Below, one piece after another: positions 11,566 to 61,761 of a DNA stretch of 64,000 nucleotides. A program made the translations under genes and the position numbers. Position 1 is the first letter of the stretch. The number at the start of each line of letters is the position of its first letter. The notes beneath the pieces are model-generated. The model was given only the letters and a program-made list of their open reading frames with translations. It was not told the origin of the DNA and did not search any database. Source of the stretch: Bacteroidota bacterium (GTDB taxonomy: Bacteria; Bacteroidota; Bacteroidia; Palsa-948); NCBI GenBank assembly GCA_003164895.1, contig PLUL01000021.1, positions 124,001 to 188,000 of the forward strand. The letters are read 5' to 3'.

Positions 11566-12978
11566 TTACTTCCGAATAATTATTTTTTTCGTTGAGCTTC
11601 CTTCGCTTGTTTTCACTTGAAGAAAATACATTCCATCCGATAAATCTTTTCTACTAATTACGAATGTCGAATTACGAATGAATTGGTTGTAAACTTTTTG
11701 CCCAAATACATTGTAAATAGTTAATTCAGGATTTGTAATTTGTGGATTCGTCATTCGTAGTGTAGCCGTTTCAGAGAAAGGATTAGGAGAAATAGTGAAA
11801 TCATTTTTCAAATTATTTTCGGCTACGCCCATTCCTGCCGGATTTATTTTAAATATTGTTCCCAAATGATTTGCACCTCCGGTGTTTGTCATTCCATAAA
11901 AACAAGTTCCGTCAGTATAAAGCGAACCAAAAGCAATACTTCCATTTGCTGCACCCGAAAAGTCGAGCAATTTAGAATATCCGGTTCCATCGGGTTTAAT
12001 TTCATATACCACACCGCTATCATTTATTCCGCCCGAAGTTGTCATTCCGTAAAGAAAATTTCCGGCAGAAATAAGTGAACCCCATGGAAAACTTCCATTT
12101 GCAGTTCCGGTAAAATCCAGCATCTTAGAAAATCCTGTTCCATCGGGTTTTAATTCAAAAATGGTTCCGCAACCATCCGAACAAGTTCCTGTTCCGCCAA
12201 AATTAGTTACGCCAAAAAGATTTGTTCCATTATAAACAAGCGAGCCATACGGAATCCAAGCATTCGAAGAATCCGGGAAGTCGAGCAATTTTGTGTATCC
12301 GGTTCCATCGGGCTTTATTTTAAAAACAGCTCCTACATTATGAATTCCTCCTCCGGTTGTAACTCCATATAAAAACGTTCCGTCGGAAATAAGCGAGCCA
12401 TTTGGATAAGCGCCGTTTGTGGTATTAAAATCCATCAGGTCGGCATAGCCGGTTCCATCGGTTTTTATTTTAAAGATTGTTCCTACATTGCTTGCTCCGC
12501 CAAAATTAGTCATTCCATAAAGAAAAGTTCCATCCGATATAAGTGCGCCATAAGGCATTCCGCCATTTGCAGGAGTGAACTCAAGCAACTTGGCATATCC
12601 GGTTCCATCTGTTTTTATTTTAAATACGGTTCCATCATTGTATGTGCCGCCGGAATAAGTCATTCCGTAAAGGAAAGTTCCATCATAAAAAAGAGAACCC
12701 AAGGGATTGTATCCATGCAAAGTATCGTTAGCAAAATCCAGCAGTTTAGAATATCCAGTACCATCCGTTTTTATTTTAAACACAGTTCCTTTATTGTTTG
12801 CTCCGCCTGAATAAGTCATTCCGTAAAGAAAAGTTCCATCTGATATTAGCGAGCCATACGGGTTGCTTCCGTTTGAACTGCCGACAAAATCAAGGAGTTT
12901 GGTGTATTGTCCGAAACAATTGATAATTGGAAATTGACAATTGATAATTAAAAACAGGTAGAGTAAAAGTTTTTTCAT
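11566..12978 (-). CDS. GloVer-repeat surface protein with T9SS sorting domain
   Basis: A secreted 470-residue protein. Seven tandem units of about 50 residues each carry G.LISDGTFLYGMT..GG...GT.FKIK.DGTGY.KLLDF, the GloVer (TIGR03803) repeat, expected to fold as a propeller-like array. The last ~75 residues are a type A T9SS sorting domain (ISPNPFSETATL, YNVFGQKVYNQF, LSDGMYFLQV, KKIIIRK), so the mature protein should reach the cell surface. ATG 12976-12978 is preferred over a TTG two codons upstream. The signal peptide (LFLIINCQFPIINCFGQ) and part of the sorting domain are encoded by dispersed word and palindromic repeats. It converges with the barrel gene across 19 bases. Confidence 0.92.
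   Translation of the reverse strand: MKKLLLYLFLIINCQFPIINCFGQYTKLLDFVGSSNGSNPYGSLISDGTFLYGMTYSGGANNKGTVFKIKTDGTGYSKLLDFANDTLHGYNPLGSLFYDGTFLYGMTYSGGTYNDGTVFKIKTDGTGYAKLLEFTPANGGMPYGALISDGTFLYGMTNFGGASNVGTIFKIKTDGTGYADLMDFNTTNGAYPNGSLISDGTFLYGVTTGGGIHNVGAVFKIKPDGTGYTKLLDFPDSSNAWIPYGSLVYNGTNLFGVTNFGGTGTCSDGCGTIFELKPDGTGFSKMLDFTGTANGSFPWGSLISAGNFLYGMTTSGGINDSGVVYEIKPDGTGYSKLLDFSGAANGSIAFGSLYTDGTCFYGMTNTGGANHLGTIFKINPAGMGVAENNLKNDFTISPNPFSETATLRMTNPQITNPELTIYNVFGQKVYNQFIRNSTFVISRKDLSDGMYFLQVKTSEGSSTKKIIIRK
11651..11760. repeat. ACGAATTACGAAT-type palindromic element inside a coding region
   Basis: The left end CTACTAATTACGAATGTCGA (11651) and the right end, terminating GGATTCGTCATTCGTAG (11744-11760), form an imperfect inverted repeat. 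It has the same CTAC...GTAG ends and size (~110 bp) as the intergenic element at 43852-43951. It lies within the T9SS sorting-domain codons of the GloVer protein, where it encodes TNPQITNPELT and FIRNSTFVISRKDL without lengthening the domain noticeably. Confidence 0.6.
12917..12950. repeat. AATTGATAATTG word repeat encoding a signal-peptide core
   Basis: Four imperfect copies of a ~10-base word (CAATTGATAATTGGAAATTG and onward) occupy the codons for INCQFPIINC in the signal peptide of the GloVer protein. It belongs to the same class as the words at 25291, 36294 and 60555. Confidence 0.65.
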
Positions 12979-13021
12979 TTTCAATAATTTTTGCGTTGTA
13001 ACTAATTAAATTTGATAATGG

Positions 13022-25082: not shown

Positions 25083-25242
25083 ATTGAATAAATTTTATTG
25101 GTGGTATTTGTAATAATTTAATTTGGAGTAAAAAACAATCTATTATTACGAGAGATTAAAAGATTAATACAAATAATCTTAAAGGAACAAATAACATAAA
25201 GGAAGATAAAAAAAATTTATTACCAACTCTTACATAGAGATG

Positions 25243-25250
25243 TATATTTG
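25243..25250 (+). promoter_or_regulatory. Bacteroidota -7 promoter element for the TonB-type receptor
   Basis: TATATTTG matches TAnnTTTG exactly and lies seven bases before the ATG at 25258, so the transcript would have almost no leader. It overlaps the longer open frame starting at 25240, arguing against that start. Confidence 0.6.
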
Positions 25251-25257
25251 CCTCCGC

Positions 25258-27645
25258 ATGCGCACACATAAATTTCTTTTCGCATTTTTTCTTCTCACTT
25301 TTCACTTCTCATTTTTCACTTCCTCTTTTGCTCAACCTCTCACCCAAACCGTTCGGGGAATTGTGGTGGATGCCGATTCAAAAGCTCCAATTGAACAGGC
25401 AGGTGTGAAAATCCTCAACATTGATACAGCCATTTATTCCGTAACCGATGCGCAAGGGAAATTCCGCCTTGTAAAAGTTCCGGTAGGAAGACATTCCATA
25501 AAGTTTTCTATAATCGGATACGAGGATGTTCTCCAGCAAAATATTGTTGTTACATCTGGAAAAGAAATTGTTTTGAATGTAGAAATGCATGAAAAACTTT
25601 TAATGGGAAATGCCATTGAAATTATTGCGGAGAAAGACAAAACAAAAGCCAACAACGATCTGGTAACAAACAGCGCACGTAGTTTTGATCACGAAGAAAC
25701 AGAACGCTATGCAGGCACTCGCGGTGATCCAAGTAAAATGGTTGCCAGTTATGCTGGCGTAGCAACAGGAAACGATGCGCGCAACGACATCATTGTGCGC
25801 GGAAATTCCCCACTCGGAGTTTTGTGGCGCTTGGAAGATACCGATATTCCAAGTCCGAATCATTTTTCTACACAAGGCGCAACGGGCGGTCCGGTGAGCA
25901 TTTTAAATAATAATCTTATTGGTTCATCCGATTTTCTTACAGGAGCTTTTCCTTCTCAATATGGAAACCGGATGGCGGCTGTGTTCGATTTAAAAATGCG
26001 AAATGGCAACAACGAAAAAACAGAATACACCGGACAAATCGGATTCAATGGTCTGGAAGCAGGAATTGAAGGACCAATTTCAAAAAAGGATGGTTCATCT
26101 TTTCTCATCAACTACCGTTACTCTACTCTTGCGCCTTTCAAAGCGCTTGGAATAAATTTTGGCGTTTCAGGAATTCCAACCTATCAGGATCTTTCTTATA
26201 AAATAAATATTCCAACATCCAAAGCTGGAGTGATTTCCATCTGGGGAATTGGCGGAATAAGTGATATTGCTTTGCTTGACAGTCAAAAAGATTCTACGGA
26301 CTGGAGTTTTACCGGCAAAGGTCAGGACTTACGGTTCGGTTCTAAGATGGGTGCTACCGGTTTATCTCACTTATATTTTTTCAGCGATAAGATTTCGGGT
26401 AAATTAAATTTTTCAGTTTCCGGAACTCAAGGTTTAGTAACGATTGATACACTTTCAAAAACAAAAGACCCTTACCGTATTTACACAAACAATTCTAAAG
26501 ATTGGCAGTATTATGCGAACTACACAGTGACAGATAAAATAAATGCGCATCATACAATAAAAATCGGAGTGACATGGAATCCCATGTTTGCCGATTATCA
26601 TGAAACATACTGGACGAATGCAGAACATCAATATCTTGATCAGCTCAACACGCAGGGAAACACCACCTCCATTCAATCTTTTATTCACTGGCAATACCGC
26701 ATCACAGAAAAAATTACTATGAACAGCGGTGTGCATTACAATTATTTTGCTCTGAGCAATTCATCAGCCATTGAACCGAGAGCCGGAATCCGCTGGCAAT
26801 TTTTACCAAGGCAAACTCTTTCTTTTGCATTCGGAATGCACAGTCAGGCGCTTCCGTTGGTTTATTATTATTATCATTCGTACGATTCACTCACTCACAC
26901 CTATTCCAATACAAATAAAAATATTGATTTCAGCAAAAGCAGGCAATATGTGCTTGGATACGATTTCAACTTTGCAAAAAATTTTCGTTTCAAGCTGGAA
27001 ACATATTATCAAGATCTGTACAATATGCCTATCTCGCAGTATCACAGCAATTCTTTTTCTACGATCAATGTCGGCAATGAATTAGACGGCTTGACCTATC
27101 GTGATTCTCTGATAAATAAAGGAACCGGATTCAATTACGGAACAGAAATTACGCTTGAAAAGTTTTTCAGCAAAAATTATTATTTCCTAAGTTCTCTTTC
27201 TCTTTACCAATCAAAATACAAAGGCAGCGATGGAGTTCTCCGCAACACTGCTTATAGCGGAGGATATGTGTATAATCTTTTGGGCGGAAAAGAAATTCCA
27301 ATCGGAAAGAAAAATCAAATTCTCGGCTTTGATGTAAAATTCTCTTTTGCAGGCGGAAACCGCTACACGCCTATTGATGTTCAGCAATCCGCTTTGCAAA
27401 AACAGACGGTGTATATTGATTCACTGGCGTATTCCAAACAATTTCCAGCTTATCAAAAAATTGATGTCAAAGTTTCTTACCGCATCAACCGAAAAAAAGT
27501 GTCGCATTATTTTTTCTTTGACGTTGAAAATATTCTCAACCGGAAAAATATTCTTCAGCAGGTGTATGATCCCAACAAGCATGCAATTACTTACGACTAC
27601 CAGTTAGGATTGTTTCCTTATGGCGGATACAGGATTGAATTTTAA
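25258..27645 (+). CDS. TonB-dependent receptor-type outer-membrane protein
   Basis: A 795-residue outer-membrane protein. The signal peptide (FFLLTFHFSFFTSSFAQ) is followed by a CarboxypepD_reg-like domain (VRGIVVDADSKAPIEQAGV, residues ~30-115) and a plug domain (SRSFDHEE-like NSARSFDHEETERYAGTRGD, NDIIVRGNSPLGVLWRLED). A 22-strand-type barrel ends YQLGLFPYGGYRIEF. Compared with the three other barrel proteins in the window it is the closest to classical TonB-dependent receptors. No SusD, siderophore or vitamin gene is adjacent, so the ligand is unknown. It ends 10 bases from the convergent ABC exporter gene. Confidence 0.92.
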   Translation: MRTHKFLFAFFLLTFHFSFFTSSFAQPLTQTVRGIVVDADSKAPIEQAGVKILNIDTAIYSVTDAQGKFRLVKVPVGRHSIKFSIIGYEDVLQQNIVVTSGKEIVLNVEMHEKLLMGNAIEIIAEKDKTKANNDLVTNSARSFDHEETERYAGTRGDPSKMVASYAGVATGNDARNDIIVRGNSPLGVLWRLEDTDIPSPNHFSTQGATGGPVSILNNNLIGSSDFLTGAFPSQYGNRMAAVFDLKMRNGNNEKTEYTGQIGFNGLEAGIEGPISKKDGSSFLINYRYSTLAPFKALGINFGVSGIPTYQDLSYKINIPTSKAGVISIWGIGGISDIALLDSQKDSTDWSFTGKGQDLRFGSKMGATGLSHLYFFSDKISGKLNFSVSGTQGLVTIDTLSKTKDPYRIYTNNSKDWQYYANYTVTDKINAHHTIKIGVTWNPMFADYHETYWTNAEHQYLDQLNTQGNTTSIQSFIHWQYRITEKITMNSGVHYNYFALSNSSAIEPRAGIRWQFLPRQTLSFAFGMHSQALPLVYYYYHSYDSLTHTYSNTNKNIDFSKSRQYVLGYDFNFAKNFRFKLETYYQDLYNMPISQYHSNSFSTINVGNELDGLTYRDSLINKGTGFNYGTEITLEKFFSKNYYFLSSLSLYQSKYKGSDGVLRNTAYSGGYVYNLLGGKEIPIGKKNQILGFDVKFSFAGGNRYTPIDVQQSALQKQTVYIDSLAYSKQFPAYQKIDVKVSYRINRKKVSHYFFFDVENILNRKNILQQVYDPNKHAITYDYQLGLFPYGGYRIEF
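25291..25323. repeat. CTTTTCACTTCTCA word repeat encoding a signal-peptide core
   Basis: Imperfect repeats of CTTCTCACTTTTCACTTCTC (25291 onward) encode LLTFHFSFFTS of the receptor signal peptide. Same class as 12917-12950 and 36294-36325. Confidence 0.6.
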
Positions 27646-31903: not shown

Positions 31904-32800
31904 ATGGAAACGACAGAACTTTTAAAGAAAGTCCGAAAGATTGAGATAAAGACGCGTGGTCTTTCCAATCAGATTTTTTCCGGAGAGTACCATAGTGCTT
32001 TCAAAGGAAGAGGAATGGCTTTCAGCGAAGTTCGCGAGTACCAGCCGGGTGATGACATCCGAACTATTGACTGGAACGTTACTGCCCGATTCAATCATCC
32101 TTACATAAAAGTTTTTGAAGAAGAACGCGAATTAACAGTGATGCTTTTGGTTGACGTTAGCGCCTCTGAAAATTTCGGAACACAAAAACAATTGAAAAAA
32201 GATTTGGTTACCGAACTCTGTGCGGTGCTTTCTTTTTCCGCTATCCAGAACAACGACAAAACAGGAATTATTTTTTTCTCAGATAGAATTGAAAAATTCA
32301 TTCCGCCCAAAAAAGGGAAAAGCCATATCCTCCGGATCATTCGCGAACTTATCAATTTCACCCCAGAAGGAAAAGGCACCGACATCGAATTGGCTTTGAA
32401 ATATTTCACAAATGTCATAAAGAAAAAATGCATTACGTTCTTGATTTCAGATTTCATAGATGAAAAATTTACGAGTGAAAACAGAGGCGGCAGTGATGCG
32501 TTGAAAATTGCAAACAAAAAACATGACCTGGTTGCGCTTCGGATAAATGACAGGAGAGAAAGTGAACTTCCAAATGTCGGACTGATACGAATTCTTGATG
32601 CAGAAACCGGAAAATTAAAATGGGTTGACACAGCGAATCAAAAAATCCGACAGCAATATTCAAAAACGTCTTTGAAGCGCGACGCAAAGCTGAAAGATAT
32701 GTTCAATCGAAGCGGAGTTGACGCAACAACCATCAGCACTTCAGAATCCTATATTAAACCGTTGATGAACTTATTTAAAAAGAGAGAAAGTAAAAGATGA
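31904..32800 (+). CDS. DUF58 (VWA-like) protein
   Basis: A 298-residue soluble protein. The DUF58 core motif is clear: SGEYHSAFKGRGMAFSEVRE, then YQPGDDIRTIDWNVTARF, and a VWA-like strand-helix LTVMLLVDVSASENFG with a DxSxS metal site. It sits 19 bases after moxR and overlaps the next gene by four bases (ATGA). In moxR operons the DUF58 protein is thought to be a MoxR client or adaptor; its biochemical role is not established. Confidence 0.94.
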   Translation: METTELLKKVRKIEIKTRGLSNQIFSGEYHSAFKGRGMAFSEVREYQPGDDIRTIDWNVTARFNHPYIKVFEEERELTVMLLVDVSASENFGTQKQLKKDLVTELCAVLSFSAIQNNDKTGIIFFSDRIEKFIPPKKGKSHILRIIRELINFTPEGKGTDIELALKYFTNVIKKKCITFLISDFIDEKFTSENRGGSDALKIANKKHDLVALRINDRRESELPNVGLIRILDAETGKLKWVDTANQKIRQQYSKTSLKRDAKLKDMFNRSGVDATTISTSESYIKPLMNLFKKRESKR

Positions 32801-33861
32801 GAATGCAGAAAGCAAAAGGCAAAAGGCAAAAGTTTTTTTTATTCAATGTAATTGGAAGGATTGTTGGTTTTCCTTTGATTACATTCGCTTTTTTGCTTTT
32901 TGCTTCTCCTCTATTTTCGCAGAATATAACTGCTACGGCTGAACTTGACTCTAATTCAATTCTCATAGGGAAACAGGCAAAAATAAAACTGAAAGTTGAA
33001 TACAAAACCGATCAGGGAAATATTAAAATTGATTTTCCAAAAATTGCCGACACCATTATAAAACAAATTGAAGTTGTAGGAAAATCAAAAGTTGAAAAAA
33101 TAATTCCCGACTCATCAAACATGAGTCGTTTGGCGCAAACCCAAACTATCATTATCACTTCTTTTGATTCAGGATATTATGCGATTCCGCCTTTCAAGTT
33201 TATCATCAATGGAGATTCTAATAAACCAATTGAAACAGCGCCTTTGCTTTTAGCTGTCCACACCGTTGCTGTTGACACAACAATCGCTATCAAAGATATT
33301 AAACCACCAATTGATGTTCCATTTAACTGGAAAGAATATCTTCCTTATATATATATGGGAATTGGTGCGCTTGCCGTTCTTGCCGGAATAATTTATCTCA
33401 TCATTTATTATTTAAGAAAACGCAAAAAGAAACCTGTCCCTGAAATAATCATTCCAAAAATCCCTGCGCATATTACCGCACTCGAACGATTGGAAAAATT
33501 AAAGGAAGAAAAACTATGGCAGCAGGGAAAACTCAAAGAATATCATTCCGAACTTTCTGACATTATCCGGCAATATATTGAACACCGGTTTTATATTCAT
33601 GCAATGGAACAGGTTACTGATGAAATAATGTATTCGTTCAGAACTACCGATGTGAGCGATGAACTGAAAATGAAACTAAGAAATATTTTATTTCTTTCCG
33701 ACCTTGTAAAGTTTGCAAAAGAATTACCTCTTCCGAATGAAAATGAAATGAGTTGGAACAACGCATTTGAATTTGTCATGGTAACAAAAAAGGACGAAGT
33801 AAAAATTGAAACTTCTCAACCAGTCAAAACAGAAACTATAACAGAAGAAAAGCCACAATGA
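32797..33861 (+). CDS. BatD-like membrane protein of the moxR-bat operon
   Basis: A 354-residue protein with a signal sequence (residues ~20-42, ending LFSQ). A periplasmic beta domain follows (ITATAELDSNSILIGKQAKI..., similar to the first domain of BatD), then one membrane helix near residue 190 (YIYMGIGALAVLAGIIYLI) and a cytoplasmic tail of ~140 residues beginning with a KRKKKP stop-transfer. The overlap with DUF58 upstream and batA downstream (four bases each) shows tight coupling. The first ~12 codons are a GCAAAAGGCAAAAGGCAAAAG word repeat, giving an odd Lys/Gly/Gln start MRMQKAKGKRQK. The family role is unknown. Confidence 0.85.
   Translation: MRMQKAKGKRQKFFLFNVIGRIVGFPLITFAFLLFASPLFSQNITATAELDSNSILIGKQAKIKLKVEYKTDQGNIKIDFPKIADTIIKQIEVVGKSKVEKIIPDSSNMSRLAQTQTIIITSFDSGYYAIPPFKFIINGDSNKPIETAPLLLAVHTVAVDTTIAIKDIKPPIDVPFNWKEYLPYIYMGIGALAVLAGIIYLIIYYLRKRKKKPVPEIIIPKIPAHITALERLEKLKEEKLWQQGKLKEYHSELSDIIRQYIEHRFYIHAMEQVTDEIMYSFRTTDVSDELKMKLRNILFLSDLVKFAKELPLPNENEMSWNNAFEFVMVTKKDEVKIETSQPVKTETITEEKPQ
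32809..32832. repeat. AAAAGGC word repeat at a gene start
   Basis: Three consecutive GCAAAAG words encode KAKGKRQK at the N-terminus of the BatD-like protein. Same class as the other word repeats in signal-sequence codons. Confidence 0.6.
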
Positions 33862-35235: not shown

Positions 35236-36267
35236 ATGTACCGCTTCGATCACATAGAATATTTATACGGACTTGGATTGATCCCTTTATTGATTCTTCT
35301 TTTTGTCATAACAAGAATCTGGAGAAAAAGTGCATTGAAAAAACTTGGCGACATGGAAATACTTTCACTTTTGATGCCGAGTGTTTCTTCCTCAAAACCT
35401 ACATTGCGATTTATATTATTTCTCATAGCCATTACATTTTTAATTTTCGGATTGGTCAATCCTCAGATCGGTTCTAAATTGGAAGAAATAAAACGGGAAG
35501 GTTCTGATATAATAATTTGCCTGGACGTTTCGAACAGCATGAAGGCAGAAGATTTCAAACCGAATCGTCTTGCAAAAGCAAAACAGGCAATTGAAAAACT
35601 AATTGACAAACTTAACAACGACAGAATCGGAATAATTGTTTTCGCAGGTGAAGCGTATGTGCAGCTACCGATCACAACAGATTATGCCGCTGCAAAATTA
35701 TTTTTGGAAAATGTAGATTGCGATGCAGTTCCCATTCAGGGCACGGTGATAAGTTCTGCCATTCAACTTGCAGAAAAATCTTTTGGAACTGAAGAAGGAA
35801 AAAATAAAGCAATCGTTATTATTTCGGATGGCGAATCTCACGACGACGATGCCATTGCTGCTGCGCGCGAAGCAAATGAAAAAAATATTACAGTTCATAC
35901 CATCGGCATCGGTTCACCGGAAGGAGTTCCAATTCCTGTTTACAATAAAAATGTACAAGCCGGATTCAAAAAAGATAAAGAAGGCAACACAGTTGTAACA
36001 AAATTAAATGAAGGAGCAATGGAGGAAATTGCGTCCGCAGGAAATGGAGTCTATATTCGCGCTACGCAGGGCGAAATCGGACTTCTCTCTTTACAACAAA
36101 GGATAAATAAAATGGAAAAGAAAACATTTGATTCAAAAGTTTATACCGATTACGAAGATAGGTTTCAAATATTTATTGCCATCTCACTTTTTTTTCTGCT
36201 GATTGAATCTATTCTTACAGAAAGAAAAAGCAAATGGTGGGCTAAACTTTTTAAAGAAAAAGAATGA
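35236..36267 (+). CDS. batB: BatB, VWA-domain membrane protein
   Basis: A 343-residue paralogue of BatA. N-terminal helices (LYGLGLIPLLILLFVITRIW, LRFILFLIAITFLIFGLV) lead to a VWA domain with MIDAS residues DVSNS near residue 97 and SDGESHDDD near residue 197, and a C-terminal helix (FQIFIAISLFFLLIESIL). It is expected in the inner membrane next to BatA. It overlaps batC by four bases (ATGA), indicating translational coupling. Confidence 0.93.
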   Translation: MYRFDHIEYLYGLGLIPLLILLFVITRIWRKSALKKLGDMEILSLLMPSVSSSKPTLRFILFLIAITFLIFGLVNPQIGSKLEEIKREGSDIIICLDVSNSMKAEDFKPNRLAKAKQAIEKLIDKLNNDRIGIIVFAGEAYVQLPITTDYAAAKLFLENVDCDAVPIQGTVISSAIQLAEKSFGTEEGKNKAIVIISDGESHDDDAIAAAREANEKNITVHTIGIGSPEGVPIPVYNKNVQAGFKKDKEGNTVVTKLNEGAMEEIASAGNGVYIRATQGEIGLLSLQQRINKMEKKTFDSKVYTDYEDRFQIFIAISLFFLLIESILTERKSKWWAKLFKEKE

Positions 36268-36974
36268 ACTCTATTAAATACATATTGATTCATTTGGCTA
36301 TTGGCTATTGGCTATTAGCTACTGGTTTTGCACAGACGACTGACGAACAAAAACTTGTTCGAGAAGGAAATAAGAAATACAAAGAGAAAAAATATTCAGA
36401 TGCTGAAAAAAATTATCTTAATGCTCTTGGAAAACAATCAAATTCATATCGAGGAGCATTTAATCTCGGAGATTCCTATTATAAGCAGGGAAAATACAAA
36501 GAAGCAACTGAGCAGTTCGAATCACTTCTTGGACGAAAAACAAGCGATGACACACTTTCAAAAGTTTATCACAACTTAGGAAATTCCTATCTTAAACAAA
36601 AAGAATTTGAAAAATCCATTAATGCTTACAAAAATTCTTTAAAGAAAAATGATTTGGACGATGAAACAAGATACAATCTTGCGTATGCTCAACGAATGAT
36701 GAAACAAGAGCAGGAAAAACAGAAACAACAAAAAAAGGATAAGGATAAAAAAGATAAAGACAAAAAAAACGACAAGGATAAAGATAAGAAAGACGATAAA
36801 AACAAAGATAAAAAGAAGGATGAGAAGAAAGAGCAACAACAGCAGCAAAACATTTCAAAAGAAGATGCCCAACGACTTCTCGAAGCCATGAACAATGATG
36901 AAAAAAAACTCAGGGATAAAATGAATGAGAAAAAAGTAAAAGCCGCAAAATCACAAGTAGAAAAAGATTGGTAG
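36264..36974 (+). CDS. batC: BatC, TPR protein with charged tail
   Basis: A 236-residue exported protein. After a signal-like sequence (LAIGYWLLATGFAQ) come about three TPR units (residues ~25-140: KKYSDAEKNYLNALGKQSNS, FNLGDSYYKQGKYKEATEQF, HNLGNSYLKQKEFEKSINAY). A long Lys/Asp tract (KDKDKKDKDKKN...) leads to a conserved C-terminal helix (SKEDAQRLLEAMNNDEKKL). This order is typical of BatC. The signal-sequence codons are a TTGGCTATTGGCTATT word repeat. The stop overlaps the upstream TTG-extended frame of batD. Confidence 0.9.
   Translation: MNSIKYILIHLAIGYWLLATGFAQTTDEQKLVREGNKKYKEKKYSDAEKNYLNALGKQSNSYRGAFNLGDSYYKQGKYKEATEQFESLLGRKTSDDTLSKVYHNLGNSYLKQKEFEKSINAYKNSLKKNDLDDETRYNLAYAQRMMKQEQEKQKQQKKDKDKKDKDKKNDKDKDKKDDKNKDKKKDEKKEQQQQQNISKEDAQRLLEAMNNDEKKLRDKMNEKKVKAAKSQVEKDW
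36294..36325. repeat. TTGGCTATTGGCTATT word repeat encoding the BatC signal sequence
   Basis: Four TTGGCTA-type words in a row encode LAIGYWLLATG of BatC. The related word ATGGCTA is repeated at 60555-60580 in the opposite role, at a C-terminus. Confidence 0.65.
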
Positions 36975-43851: not shown

Positions 43852-43951
43852 CTACGAATTACGAATTTACACGAATTACGAATAAAAAAATTCTGTTAGT
43901 AAAATAGTTTTTAACTTTGATTTGTAATTCGCACCAATTAGTAATTCGTAG
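43852..43951. repeat. 100-bp palindromic element filling the mpl/MBL divergent promoter
   Basis: The left arm starts CTACGAATTACGAATTTACA (43852), and the right arm ends CCAATTAGTAATTCGTAG (43951). Over about 30 bases the arms are imperfect inverted copies, with an AT-rich centre of about 38 bases. The element begins three bases after the mpl start codon and ends four bases before the MBL start codon, so it makes up nearly the entire shared regulatory region. Related elements lie at 11651-11760, 17821-17854 and 59617-59683. Confidence 0.8.
43912..43919 (+). promoter_or_regulatory. Bacteroidota -7 promoter element within the palindromic element
   Basis: TAACTTTG (TAnnTTTG) lies 36 bases before the MBL gene ATG at 43956, in the centre of the repeat, suggesting that the element itself carries the promoter. 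Confidence 0.5.
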
Positions 43952-58628: not shown

Positions 58629-59609
58629 TTAATACTGTTTTTTTTCTCTCAGATAATTCATAACGTAATCATGAATTCCATCTTCGAGAGAAGTAAACTT
58701 GACATCGCAACCTGCACTGGTTAGTTTATTCATTTTCGCTTCTGTGAAGTATTGATATTTGTCGCGAATATCTGCAGGAGTATCAATAAATTCTATTTCA
58801 GATTTTTTTCCTAAAGAAGCAAATACAGAATTAGCCAAATCTAAAAATGTTCTTGCTTTTCCTGAGCCAAGATTATAAATACCGGAATTTTTCCTGGTTC
58901 GCAAAAGCCACAGACAAACTTTAGTTACATCTTTTACATAAATGAAATCGCGCAACTGTTCTCCATTTTTGTAGTTCGGATTATGTGAGCGGAATAGTTT
59001 TACTTTTCCTGTTTCCTGTATTTGATTGAATGCATGAAGCATAACCGATGCCATTCTGCCTTTGTGATATTCATTGGGACCATACACATTAAAAAATTTC
59101 AATCCTGCCCAGAAGGAAGGAAGTTTTGAGTTCGGAGTTCGAAGTTGGGAGATTACCCATTTGTCAAAATCATTTTTTGATTCTCCATAAGGATTTAGCG
59201 GATGAAGTTTTTCTATCAATGAAATATCATCTTCATAACCGAACTCCCCTACTCCATACGTTGCCGCAGAAGAAGCATACACCATCGGTATTCCGAATTC
59301 AGAACAAACCTTCCAAACATTTTTTGAAAAATTAAGATTGAGTTTGTCAAAAATACTTTTATCAAACTCGGTGGTATCGGTTCTCGCACCCAGATGAAAA
59401 ACAAATTGCACCAATCGCTGATTTTCTCTCAGCCATCCGGGAAAAATATCACGATGAATTTCTTTTGAAAAAGTTTTTCCATTCAGATTTTTATTTTTAT
59501 CAGCGCGGGAAAAATCATCCACAATCACAATATCCTTAAAACCTTCTTGATTCATACGGCTGACCAAACAACTTCCAATAAATCCTGCGGCGCCGGTAAC
59601 TACAATCAT
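58629..59609 (-). CDS. hldD: ADP-L-glycero-D-manno-heptose 6-epimerase
   Basis: The epimerase converts ADP-D-glycero-D-manno-heptose to the L-glycero form used in lipopolysaccharide inner core. The 326-residue protein has the NAD(P)-binding loop TGAAGFIGSCLV at residues 5-16, the catalytic ASSAATYG and NPYGESK motifs of short-chain epimerases, and the HldD-specific FFNVYGPNEYHKGRMASV and LGSGKARTFLDLA. Just before FFNVYG the segment ISQLRTPNSKLPSFW is a few residues longer than in E. coli and is encoded by an AACTCCGAACTC word repeat. No other heptose gene lies nearby. The upstream gap is filled by a repeat element. Confidence 0.95.
   Translation of the reverse strand: MIVVTGAAGFIGSCLVSRMNQEGFKDIVIVDDFSRADKNKNLNGKTFSKEIHRDIFPGWLRENQRLVQFVFHLGARTDTTEFDKSIFDKLNLNFSKNVWKVCSEFGIPMVYASSAATYGVGEFGYEDDISLIEKLHPLNPYGESKNDFDKWVISQLRTPNSKLPSFWAGLKFFNVYGPNEYHKGRMASVMLHAFNQIQETGKVKLFRSHNPNYKNGEQLRDFIYVKDVTKVCLWLLRTRKNSGIYNLGSGKARTFLDLANSVFASLGKKSEIEFIDTPADIRDKYQYFTEAKMNKLTSAGCDVKFTSLEDGIHDYVMNYLREKKQY
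59117..59150. repeat. GAGTTCGGAGTTCGAAGTT word repeat inside hldD
   Basis: Imperfect copies of GAGTTCGAAGTT/AAGTTTTGAGTTC encode QLRTPNSKLPS in HldD, between the helix ending FDKWV and the strand GLKFFNVYG. Same class as the other word repeats. Confidence 0.55.
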
Positions 59610-59616
59610 AATTTAC

Positions 59617-59683
59617 TAAATACGAATTTCTACGAATGTACTAATAACAACAATTCGTAAATTAATACAGATTAGTAATTTTG
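59617..59683. repeat. ACGAATT-type palindromic element before hldD
   Basis: TACGAATTTCTACGAATGTA is followed by ACTAATAACAACAATTCGTA and a closing ATTAGTAATTT, giving ACTAAT/ATTAGT and CGAAT/ATTCG inverted pairs. It fills the 79-base gap between the lipoprotein gene and hldD. Related to 43852-43951. Confidence 0.6.
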
Positions 59684-59688
59684 GTAGG

Positions 59689-60129
59689 TTAGTTAAAGAT
59701 GTGCAACGCAGTTCCATCAAATGAAGTTTGATAAATCTTCAGTATGTTGGAAGCTGGTCCGTGATTTACCGAACCGTCAGTCAAGAGAAATTTAGAACCA
59801 CACACGGCATCCGTGGCAGTAACTCCATTGGCATCTACTGAAATTACATTTCTATTCGCAACATTATAGGTACAGCAGCGATCATATGCCATAAATGTGC
59901 TTGGATTAGTACTAGTGCAATAGACAACAATTCCACACACACCAATATTTGCAATATAGGTGTGACCACCAACAATATTTACTTGGGCAAACGCTGGATC
60001 GGATGTGTATAGTAAATAGTTGACCGTAACAGTAGGAACGTAATCCGCTGATTTCTTTTTGCAACTGAACAAAACAAGCACCGTCAGAAAAATAAGTATG
60101 CCGCTTTTTATTTTCAAAACCTTGTTCAT
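59689..60129 (-). CDS. Rieske-like lipoprotein with altered ligand positions
   Basis: A 146-residue lipoprotein (MNKVLKIKSGILIFLTVLVL then FSC lipobox). The core resembles Rieske-type proteins of Bacteroidota: MAYDRCCTYNV in the first ligand loop, and DAVCGSKFLLTDGSVNHGPA followed by SNILKIY in the second. The canonical CxH and CxxH ligands are not present as such: the first loop has Cys-Cys-Thr-Tyr, and the second has Cys at the usual His position with Asp in place of Cys. The fold is probably kept while the cluster may be lost or changed. The second ATG (60127-60129) is preferred for spacing from the promoter; an in-frame ATG at 60141 is also possible. Confidence 0.75.
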   Translation of the reverse strand: MNKVLKIKSGILIFLTVLVLFSCKKKSADYVPTVTVNYLLYTSDPAFAQVNIVGGHTYIANIGVCGIVVYCTSTNPSTFMAYDRCCTYNVANRNVISVDANGVTATDAVCGSKFLLTDGSVNHGPASNILKIYQTSFDGTALHIFN

Positions 60130-60149
60130 TTCTCGATACATCGTTTAGA

Positions 60150-60549: not shown

Positions 60550-60554
60550 CAAAA

Positions 60555-60580
60555 ATGGCTAATGGCTAATGGCTAATAGC
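60555..60580. repeat. ATGGCTA word repeat at the 3' end of the TlpA-like gene
   Basis: Three ATGGCTA words in a row (60555-60574) continue into AATAGC. The minus strand encodes the last residues LLAISH and the stop codon of the TlpA-like protein, so the repeat sets the C-terminus of that protein. Confidence 0.65.
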
Positions 60581-61761
60581 TCTTTTATTTTATGTTCTAA
60601 AGCCGGTCCTTCTAAATTTTTTCCTGCAATATTTCCATTCTTGTCTATCAAACAAGTAAAAGGAATTCCACTGAAACCATACAGCGCAACAACCGGAGAC
60701 TGCCATTGTTTCATATCGCAAACATGATTTTTCCAAGTGAGTTTGTCTTTTGCAATTGCCTCAAGCCAAGCATCTTTTTTAAAATCAAGCGACACGCTGA
60801 AAACATCCAATCCTTTATCTTTATATTTATTATAAAGTTCAACTACAAAAGGATTTGCAGCGCGGCACGGTTTGCACCACGATGCCCAGAAATCAAGAAT
60901 CACCACCTTTCCTTTGAGAGATGAAAGTGAAAGCGGTTTATCATCCGGATTGTTCATCGTTATTTCGGGAGCGGGCATTCCAATAGCAAGATGTTTTAGT
61001 CCTTGTACATAGGTTTTGAATTCTTTAAGATTAGTGACGTTTGGGTATTTTGCTGTGAGCGCATCAGAAACTTTCACAAAATAATCTACGTCATGTTCCG
61101 GATTTAACATCTGCACCGCTGCTATCGAAGCAAAGGAAGAAGTATTATCATCAATAAATTTTTTTACATATCCGCTTGTTTCCTCAGCCAGTTTGCGGTA
61201 TTCTTCTGACATCGCATTAAACTTTGGCTCCAGCATTTTAGAAAGCGAATCAAGAAATAATTTATCGGATGTGGTGTTCATATATGTTTCGTAAACTCTT
61301 CTGATGGAATCCTGTTTGTTGCGCAACTCATCCATCAATTTGAATTTTTTTCTTGTATCATTATTGAACTGTACAAAGATCTCTGCATCCTTTGATCCTG
61401 TTACTTTATAGGACTCGCCAAGATTTTTTGCATCACCTTCAAAAATTATTTTTTCGGAACTATCAACAATAATTGTTGCATAATTAGAGGCAATTGTTTG
61501 AATGATGTAAAATCCTTTTTCAGAAATTTTTTTTACAAAGACAAATTCTCCCTTCTCATTTACTTTTACCGAATCAAGAGTTTTTGGCTGAGAAGAATTT
61601 ACATCCACCAGCGAAACAGTTTCTCCTCTGCTATTAATAAGTTTCCCTTTTATCTGAAAATTATTTGCATTCTTGTTATCTCCACAGGAGGAAATTAAAG
61701 CAAGCACAATAATGCCGAAGGTAATTCTTAACAGGTGCAATTGTTTTCTGAAAATTTTCAT
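60559..61761 (-). CDS. TlpA-like thiol-disulfide oxidoreductase lipoprotein
   Basis: A 400-residue lipoprotein (lipobox ALISSC). The N-terminal half (FQIKGKLINSRGETVSLVDV ... SEKIIFEGDAKNLGESYKVT) is a DUF4369-type beta domain, followed by a helical linker (~145-250). The C-terminal thioredoxin fold has active site FWASWCKPCRAANP near residues 290-302 and the cis-Pro loop FSGIPFTCLID. These proteins reduce or rearrange disulfides at the periplasmic face. It starts eight bases after the T9SS beta-helix gene stop, so the two are co-transcribed, and its last codons come from a word repeat. Confidence 0.93.
   Translation of the reverse strand: MKIFRKQLHLLRITFGIIVLALISSCGDNKNANNFQIKGKLINSRGETVSLVDVNSSQPKTLDSVKVNEKGEFVFVKKISEKGFYIIQTIASNYATIIVDSSEKIIFEGDAKNLGESYKVTGSKDAEIFVQFNNDTRKKFKLMDELRNKQDSIRRVYETYMNTTSDKLFLDSLSKMLEPKFNAMSEEYRKLAEETSGYVKKFIDDNTSSFASIAAVQMLNPEHDVDYFVKVSDALTAKYPNVTNLKEFKTYVQGLKHLAIGMPAPEITMNNPDDKPLSLSSLKGKVVILDFWASWCKPCRAANPFVVELYNKYKDKGLDVFSVSLDFKKDAWLEAIAKDKLTWKNHVCDMKQWQSPVVALYGFSGIPFTCLIDKNGNIAGKNLEGPALEHKIKELLAISH

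Follow-up and report, generated by a model that had tools for sequence, protein, structure and literature searches.

In-frame heptanucleotide repeat words in a type IX sorting domain and in orthologous enzyme loops of a Bacteroidota genus

Tandem repeats with a seven-base unit are known as heptanucleotide tandem repeats, or STRRs. Those with the unit TAACTGA are described from cyanobacteria, Beggiatoaceae and Bacteroidetes, where they are patchy across phyla and often lie right upstream of start codons; a few are found inside open reading frames (ORFs), mostly at protein ends, and the translated reverse repeat is predicted to form beta-sheet (MacGregor 2015, PMC4679880). Palindromic elements are also on record inside genes, both as repetitive extragenic palindromes (REPs) and, by citation in the same paper, as in-frame Rickettsia palindromic elements (RPEs; Di Nocera 2013, PMC3733652). 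The locus analyzed here resembles each of these systems in part. It shares 7-base tandem units with the TAACTGA-type repeats, and in this genome such units are in excess of chance (45 versus 5.9 at lag 7), but where those repeats have one dominant word with ORF copies mainly at protein ends (PMC4679880), many words are used here, in frame, in conserved enzyme loops, and they differ between orthologues. RPEs are found in intergenic DNA as well as in frame inside ORFs (PMC3733652), and so is the element described below. It differs from them in being an array of degenerate heptamers, with a word that varies from one species to another, and in that an ordinary protein core lies between its arms. 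Like the GTAG-tagged REPs (PMC3733652), it has CTAC/GTAG ends, small inverted repeats and copies inside genes, although no RAYT-type gene was found in this draft genome. Neither heptanucleotide repeats nor in-frame palindromic elements are new; for word swapping at fixed loops of orthologues, a literature search at the level of titles and abstract starts returned no precedent, and none is described in the passages of PMC4679880 and PMC3733652 that were searched.

Repeat arms in a type IX sorting domain

The window, by which we mean the whole 64-kb stretch of DNA that was analyzed, contains on its minus strand a gene (11566-12984) that, from its ORF and translation, encodes a secreted repeat-propeller-like protein of 472 residues, presumably of the GloVer type, as the sequence-only reading had named it. 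Its C-terminal type IX secretion system (T9SS) sorting domain (11572-11793, minus strand; C12:135572-135793) scores above the curated cut-offs of both TIGR04183 (E = 1.9e-15; 58.4 bits, cut-off 23) and PF18962 (residues 398-470, E = 3e-12; 47.1 bits, cut-off 27) and is thus a member of the family with solved relatives 8glk and 8glj, from whose usual members it differs in that its arms are written in repeat DNA. In coding-strand sense, CTACGAATGACGAATCCACAAATTACAAATCC is followed by 45-50 bases of ordinary domain core and then by ATTCATTCGTAATTCGACATTCGTAATTAGTAG. The first arm (11731-11760, minus strand; atttgtaatttgtggattcgtcattcgtag), in the TACGAAT sense on the coding strand, matches the two half-arms with 3 mismatches and encodes LRMTNPQITNPE, a predicted strand edge and the loop that follows it. 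The second arm (11651-11680, minus strand; ctactaattacgaatgtcgaattacgaatg on the plus strand), in the ATTCGTA sense, has 1 mismatch and encodes FIRNSTFVISR, a turn and a predicted strand; its half-arms are separated by a spacer of 2 nt and it holds a period-14 array at 11656-11680, the array threshold being reached in the sorting-domain arms at lag 14 only. A single-sequence structure model (mean pLDDT 70) predicts strands at residues 26-31, 40-45, 50-55 and 60-64 of the domain, which would place the arms, residues 29-40 and 55-65, on strand edges, a loop and one whole strand.

Both arms share their inverted ATTCGTA and TACGAAT words with an intergenic palindromic copy at 43852-43951, beyond which the divergent genes on both sides start within a few bases. 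The inverted repeat is 36 nt long at 81% complementarity in the intergenic copy versus 14 nt at 93% in the coding copy, and the arms of both end in CTAC/GTAG. The two sorting-domain arms are in frame and, like the intergenic copies, free of stops. Although the arms match between coding and intergenic copies, the cores differ: the segment between the arms (11681-11730, minus strand), which encodes ELTIYNVFGQKVYNQ, is by sequence and family alignment an ordinary sorting-domain core that lies outside the intergenic element. The sequence-only reading had placed a whole CTAC...GTAG element of about 110 bp, like that at 43852-43951, in frame within the domain; the two arms and their frame bear this out, and a full-length element in the gene was rejected because the 50-bp core has no match to the intergenic copy. 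A known RNA family was likewise rejected as the identity of the element, since no Rfam family matched in the window.

The element words are far more frequent than expected. With up to 2 mismatches, the 14-base element word occurs 10 times in the 64-kb window (0.73 expected) and 128 times genome-wide, compared to 29 for the reversed control; this word, TACGAATTACGAAT, has 9 exact matches in the 3.25-Mb genome versus 0 for the reversed control. In noncoding copies of this genome the common arm is made up of ATTCGTAATTCG and ATTCGTAATTCGTAG with 2 to 5 nt between them. A degenerate ATTCGTA copy is also present at 59614-59637 of the window, where it separates gene 58629-59609 from gene 59689-60141. 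In five of the ten coding copies the residues were held fixed and the codons redrawn from host usage, with 4000 recodings per arm. This revealed that none of the recodings of the FIRNSTFVISR arm, and 26 of 4000 for the LRMTNPQITNPE arm, matched the element as well as the natural sequence; the corresponding values were 30/4000 and 0/4000 for the arms of a diverged sorting domain at C35:13959, and 0 or 1 of 4000 per arm for three sister-species sorting domains.

The genome has 118 sorting domains, of which 90 were covered by a scan for the ATTCGTA word and all 118 by the lag-7 scan. Searching them for the same words, as the sequence-only reading had proposed, identified both arms in 3 of the 90: the domain of 11566-12984, its paralogue at C12:219486 (63% identity) and the diverged domain at C35:13959 (46%). 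The words were also found in sorting domains of three sister species (G002, G003 and G006) and of G013, a genome from another family, where the same residues are again encoded by the repeat words (L083). The outcome that the sequence-only reading had named as a refutation, distant species with these residues but no repeat at the DNA level, was thus not encountered. Several sorting domains with the pattern LRITN..VIRNS..FVI have both arms in common. The proposed comparison of orthologues gave a divided answer, in that sister-species domains carry the words and the best orthologues of the 11566-12984 protein (L070, L071 and L179) show different repeat words in these arms. Elsewhere in this genome the same two places are occupied by AATTATC, GTTTACA, AAAATTC, AGCTAAT or CATCAAT words, and in sister species by GTCATTA, AATCCTT or CACTCAA words or, in two cases, by a palindromic repeat reading SVIPSGARNL or SVIPNAARNL. 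Two sister-species domains, L195 (G003) and L188 (G006), are alike in their first half, which belongs to one subtype, but the second arm is FVIRNSASFVISRDGL in L195 and IKNISGQTVVLSRDNL in L188; that one arm has been replaced while the domains remain similar elsewhere supports overwriting as one of the steps. Lag-7 scores of 10 or more were seen in 9 of the 118 sorting domains and in 0 of the 245 coding segments taken from further upstream in these genes.

The reading frame is reflected in the spacing of the half-arms. In the ATTCGTA-sense arm every one of the 10 coding copies has a spacer of 2 or 5, the sole stop-free class, versus 2, 3, 4 or 5 in noncoding copies, a rule that rests partly on shared descent, as the ten coding copies are related sorting domains. 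The TACGAAT-sense arm, which is open in every frame, has a spacer of 3, 5 or 6 in nine coding copies and is absent from L195. GC-rich palindromic repeats were also observed in frame in sorting domains (L121 and L125, at C26:51791 and C56:29010; L181 and L192), where they read LTPAPSPSGEGWGEVV, LPTGQAG, SVIPSGARNL or SVIPNAARNL.

Period-7 arrays in coding and intergenic DNA

Five coding period-7 arrays are present in the window, versus 0.0 expected by codon shuffling. One of them, an in-frame array of AATTATC words (12918-12949, minus strand; lag-7 score 12.5), lies in the signal-peptide-like N-terminus of the 11566-12984 protein itself (LIINCQFPIINC) and is absent from all five orthologues or homologues that span this stretch. 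Signal-peptide-like N-termini also host the in-frame arrays of gene 25240-27645 (25291-25321, plus strand; score 11.5, with an extended lag-14 array at 25285-25340) and of the TPR gene 36264-36974, whose GGCTATT array (36294-36321, plus strand; score 18.5) can be followed in orthologues. An in-frame array at the extreme 5' end of gene 32797-33861 (32800-32832, plus strand) and an array spanning the 3' end of gene 60559-61761 (60554-60581, minus strand), redoxin-like by family match, both score 18.5.

Across 634 ORFs (645 kb), the 45 coding arrays compare with a mean of 5.9 and a maximum of 12 in ten runs in which the proteins were kept and synonymous codons shuffled. At control lags in the same ORFs, 4, 5, 10 and 11 were at the null, with a slight excess at 8 (4 versus 0.8) and 13 (2 versus 0.7). 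Of two samples outside the window, which agree with this, one has 27 coding arrays in 370 kb and the other 13 in 214 kb; genus mates have 18 in 200 kb of coding DNA, and 21 genomes of other families have 5 in 482 kb, masked bases excluded. As 7 is not a multiple of 3, the arrays are not repeats of single residues or short peptides. They are hosted by signal peptides, sorting domains and enzyme loops: 20 of the 45 start within the first 30 codons, some of which may be wrong starts because the ORFs were called mechanically, 22 are internal, and 3 end within the last 15 codons. Noncoding arrays number 6 in 30 kb in the sample with 27 coding arrays, where density is greater outside genes, and 0 in 22 kb in the other sample, which points only weakly to an intergenic reservoir. 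Among 101 arrays, 37 pairs share a word, versus 7.8 expected when letters are permuted, and nine words occur both in this genome and in sister genomes. This would favour some copying between loci, but against a null that is lax, and that may be too lax if words share an AACT start.

Noncoding ATTCGTA elements were observed to stop only a few bases short of a start codon (L011, L012, L056, L058, L164, L165, L167, L168 and L176), and some fill the entire gap between two divergent genes; such placement suggests a role for the elements, or their tolerance, in 5' leaders. Among the matches listed, the exact ATTCGTA arm is also present in records from Bacteroidetes, Patescibacteria and Nostocales, and of at least 86 sites examined among these matches, one is in a sorting domain. 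Also among the matches listed, the exact arm lies immediately ahead of, or close to, what are probably the start codons of housekeeping-like genes, in Patescibacteria and in other, unclassified records (L228, L229, L241, L262 and L268). In a gene that we take to be RlmN-like, a palindromic repeat reading VVIPNEVRNL lengthens the ORF at its 5' end (L363, 2656-2760), and translation probably begins at MQKKNIR further in.

Orthologous loops across the genus

For nine repeat loops in six genes of this genome (G000), the counterparts in the remaining six genomes of the genus were examined, all of these genomes being draft assemblies. The genes were picked for their repeats in G000, not randomly, and comprise AnmK, a TMTC-like and a YggS-like gene with ATTCGTA-type words, the TPR gene of the window, and an amidohydrolase-like and a KdtA-like gene with three and two arrays, respectively. 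The names are in part our assumption: we take the PF01168 PLP protein to be YggS-like, KdtA-like was assigned from the gene's sequence, and amidohydrolase-like and TMTC-like are provisional names, the latter presumed for a membrane protein with an ATTCGTA loop that had no Pfam match. Arrays with a score of at least 11 were present in 20 of 49 orthologous loops, G000 not counted, versus 18 of 478 windows taken elsewhere in these genes, a control set that itself includes further repeat loops. No array (score below 8) was found in 25 of the 49 sister-species loops. At 7 of the 9 loops the species have different words (score of at least 8), often of equal length.

In AnmK (PF03702) the loop words are AATTCGT in G000, AACCCCG in G004, AACTCCA in G005, AACTGCC in G006 and AACTCCG in G002, with none in G003 or G001. 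The loop before SMGMS in the YggS-like protein reads ATTCGTC in G000, ACTCCCT in G004, ACTTTAA in G005 and ACTCAAG in G001, is degenerate in G002 and G006, and in G003 has AACTGCC with a nested GC-rich palindrome. Loop 2 of the KdtA-like protein holds AACTGCC, AAAATGG and AAACTTC in three species at equal length, and its loop 1 holds AACTCCC, AACTCCG or TCGTCCC, or AACTGCC-type words beside a palindrome. The first amidohydrolase-like loop has AACCTCC, GAAGGAC or the CCCCTCTCC palindrome, and the second AACATCC, AAGTTGA or AATCTGC-type words, or a palindrome nested in AACCTTA words. The TPR signal peptide (36264-36974) uses GGCTATT in G000 and G005 and GGCTACT or CTACTGC elsewhere, with two species having no array. 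Swapping does not extend to every site: the ATTCGTA word of the TMTC-like loop is kept in all six species, and the third amidohydrolase-like loop reaches the threshold in G000 only, with a degenerate copy in G005.

Homogenization was assessed in three equal-length loops, using the species with an array there. Lag-7 identity within the array was higher than identity at the same position between species in the YggS-like (0.78 versus 0.48), KdtA-like (0.90 versus 0.62) and AnmK (0.75 versus 0.59) loops, and 0 of 2000 column permutations reached the observed value in each of the three. This pattern looks like concerted evolution plus replacement within coding sequence. By eye, the arrays are in phase with flanking strand codons AACT or CATT. 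GC-rich palindromes nested in frame within heptamer arrays were observed in conserved enzymes, namely in the G003 YggS-like (L336) and G001 amidohydrolase-like (L411) proteins, and the arrays may be landing sites for them. One gene of G004 has two in-frame heptamer arrays that are absent from its G000 relative (L367 and L361), a clean presence/absence pair.

Origin and meaning of the coding copies

The sequence-only reading had the repeat either inserted and trimmed, or overwriting the region. The words are indeed repeat-derived and compatible with the frame, and a single palindromic mobile element that inserted once in the 11566-12984 sorting domain or overwrote it, as with RPEs, would explain why both arms are there, inverted and stop-free as in the intergenic copies, and would accommodate the arm replacement between L195 and L188. 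We nevertheless consider a single event quite unlikely, because the words are found at the same places in the paralogue, in C35:13959, in sister species and in another family, the orthologues hold other words in the same arms, and the core is not element-like. Vertical inheritance with domain shuffling, in which one sorting-domain subtype gained the words once, was copied to other genes and was inherited by sister species, agrees with the several LRITN..VIRNS..FVI domains that have both arms, with the 63% identical paralogue and with the TMTC-like loop word kept in six species, but leaves unaccounted for both the other words in the same arms and the species-differing arrays in the AnmK, YggS-like, KdtA-like and amidohydrolase loops, and is unlikely to be the explanation.

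Transposition of GTAG-tagged REP sequences by a RAYT-type transposase is suggested by the CTAC/GTAG ends of the arms and by reports of REPs inside genes (PMC3733652), yet many of the words have no GTAG and are plain tandem heptamers. A search for the transposase profile Y1_Tnp (PF01797) found 0 matches in the draft genome of this organism and was positive in 5 of 14 control genomes; a RAYT transposase was rejected as the agent on this result, and we regard this route as very improbable. That AT-rich codons for conserved residues merely resemble the repeat is hardly credible: ITN and IRNS do fit normal sorting-domain residues, but the synonymous recodings refute chance codon use for the window arms, and the period-7 excess is seen at fixed protein sequence.

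We favour, with a probability of roughly two in three, the reading that the arms are short in-frame copies of a degenerate heptanucleotide repeat, at one of many such loci, and that a genus-wide process acting at the level of DNA makes and maintains 7-base tandem words whose arrays are homogenized within lineages and swapped between them. Such a process would operate both between and inside genes, and copies inside genes would survive where the protein tolerates them, in signal peptides, in the edge strands and loops of sorting domains and in enzyme loops, as stop-free, frame-keeping versions only. An array at such a site would then be homogenized within a lineage, and its word would change between lineages, most likely through slippage-type (slipped-strand) homogenization combined with occasional ectopic replacement or conversion of one array by another; GC-rich palindromes would replace an array or nest inside it. 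The sites at which one word is kept, the frequent loops that have no array and the draft state of the assemblies count against this reading. We infer from the sequence comparisons that copying of this kind would run from array to gene and that the changes would be close to selectively neutral. A bolder proposal, which we hold to be doubtful, is that copying in steps of 7 bases continues in this genus and repeatedly rewrites tolerant segments (sorting signals, signal peptides and enzyme loops) from one DNA word to another, with length and frame kept. It would diversify loops genome-wide and be tied to no single mobile element, perhaps reflecting a 7-base-stepping polymerase or repair pathway for which the outermost bases of the flanking strand serve as seed.

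If the favoured reading is correct, it would bear on a long-standing puzzle, the dominance of heptanucleotides among the tandem repeats of certain bacteria, and would make the question testable by comparing strains of one genus. It would also bear on loop alignments and orthology and on the origin of sorting signals and signal peptides. One enzyme loop could change about ten residues at once with the frame kept, and part of the protein sequence in these organisms would be set by a DNA copying process, not by codon-by-codon change.
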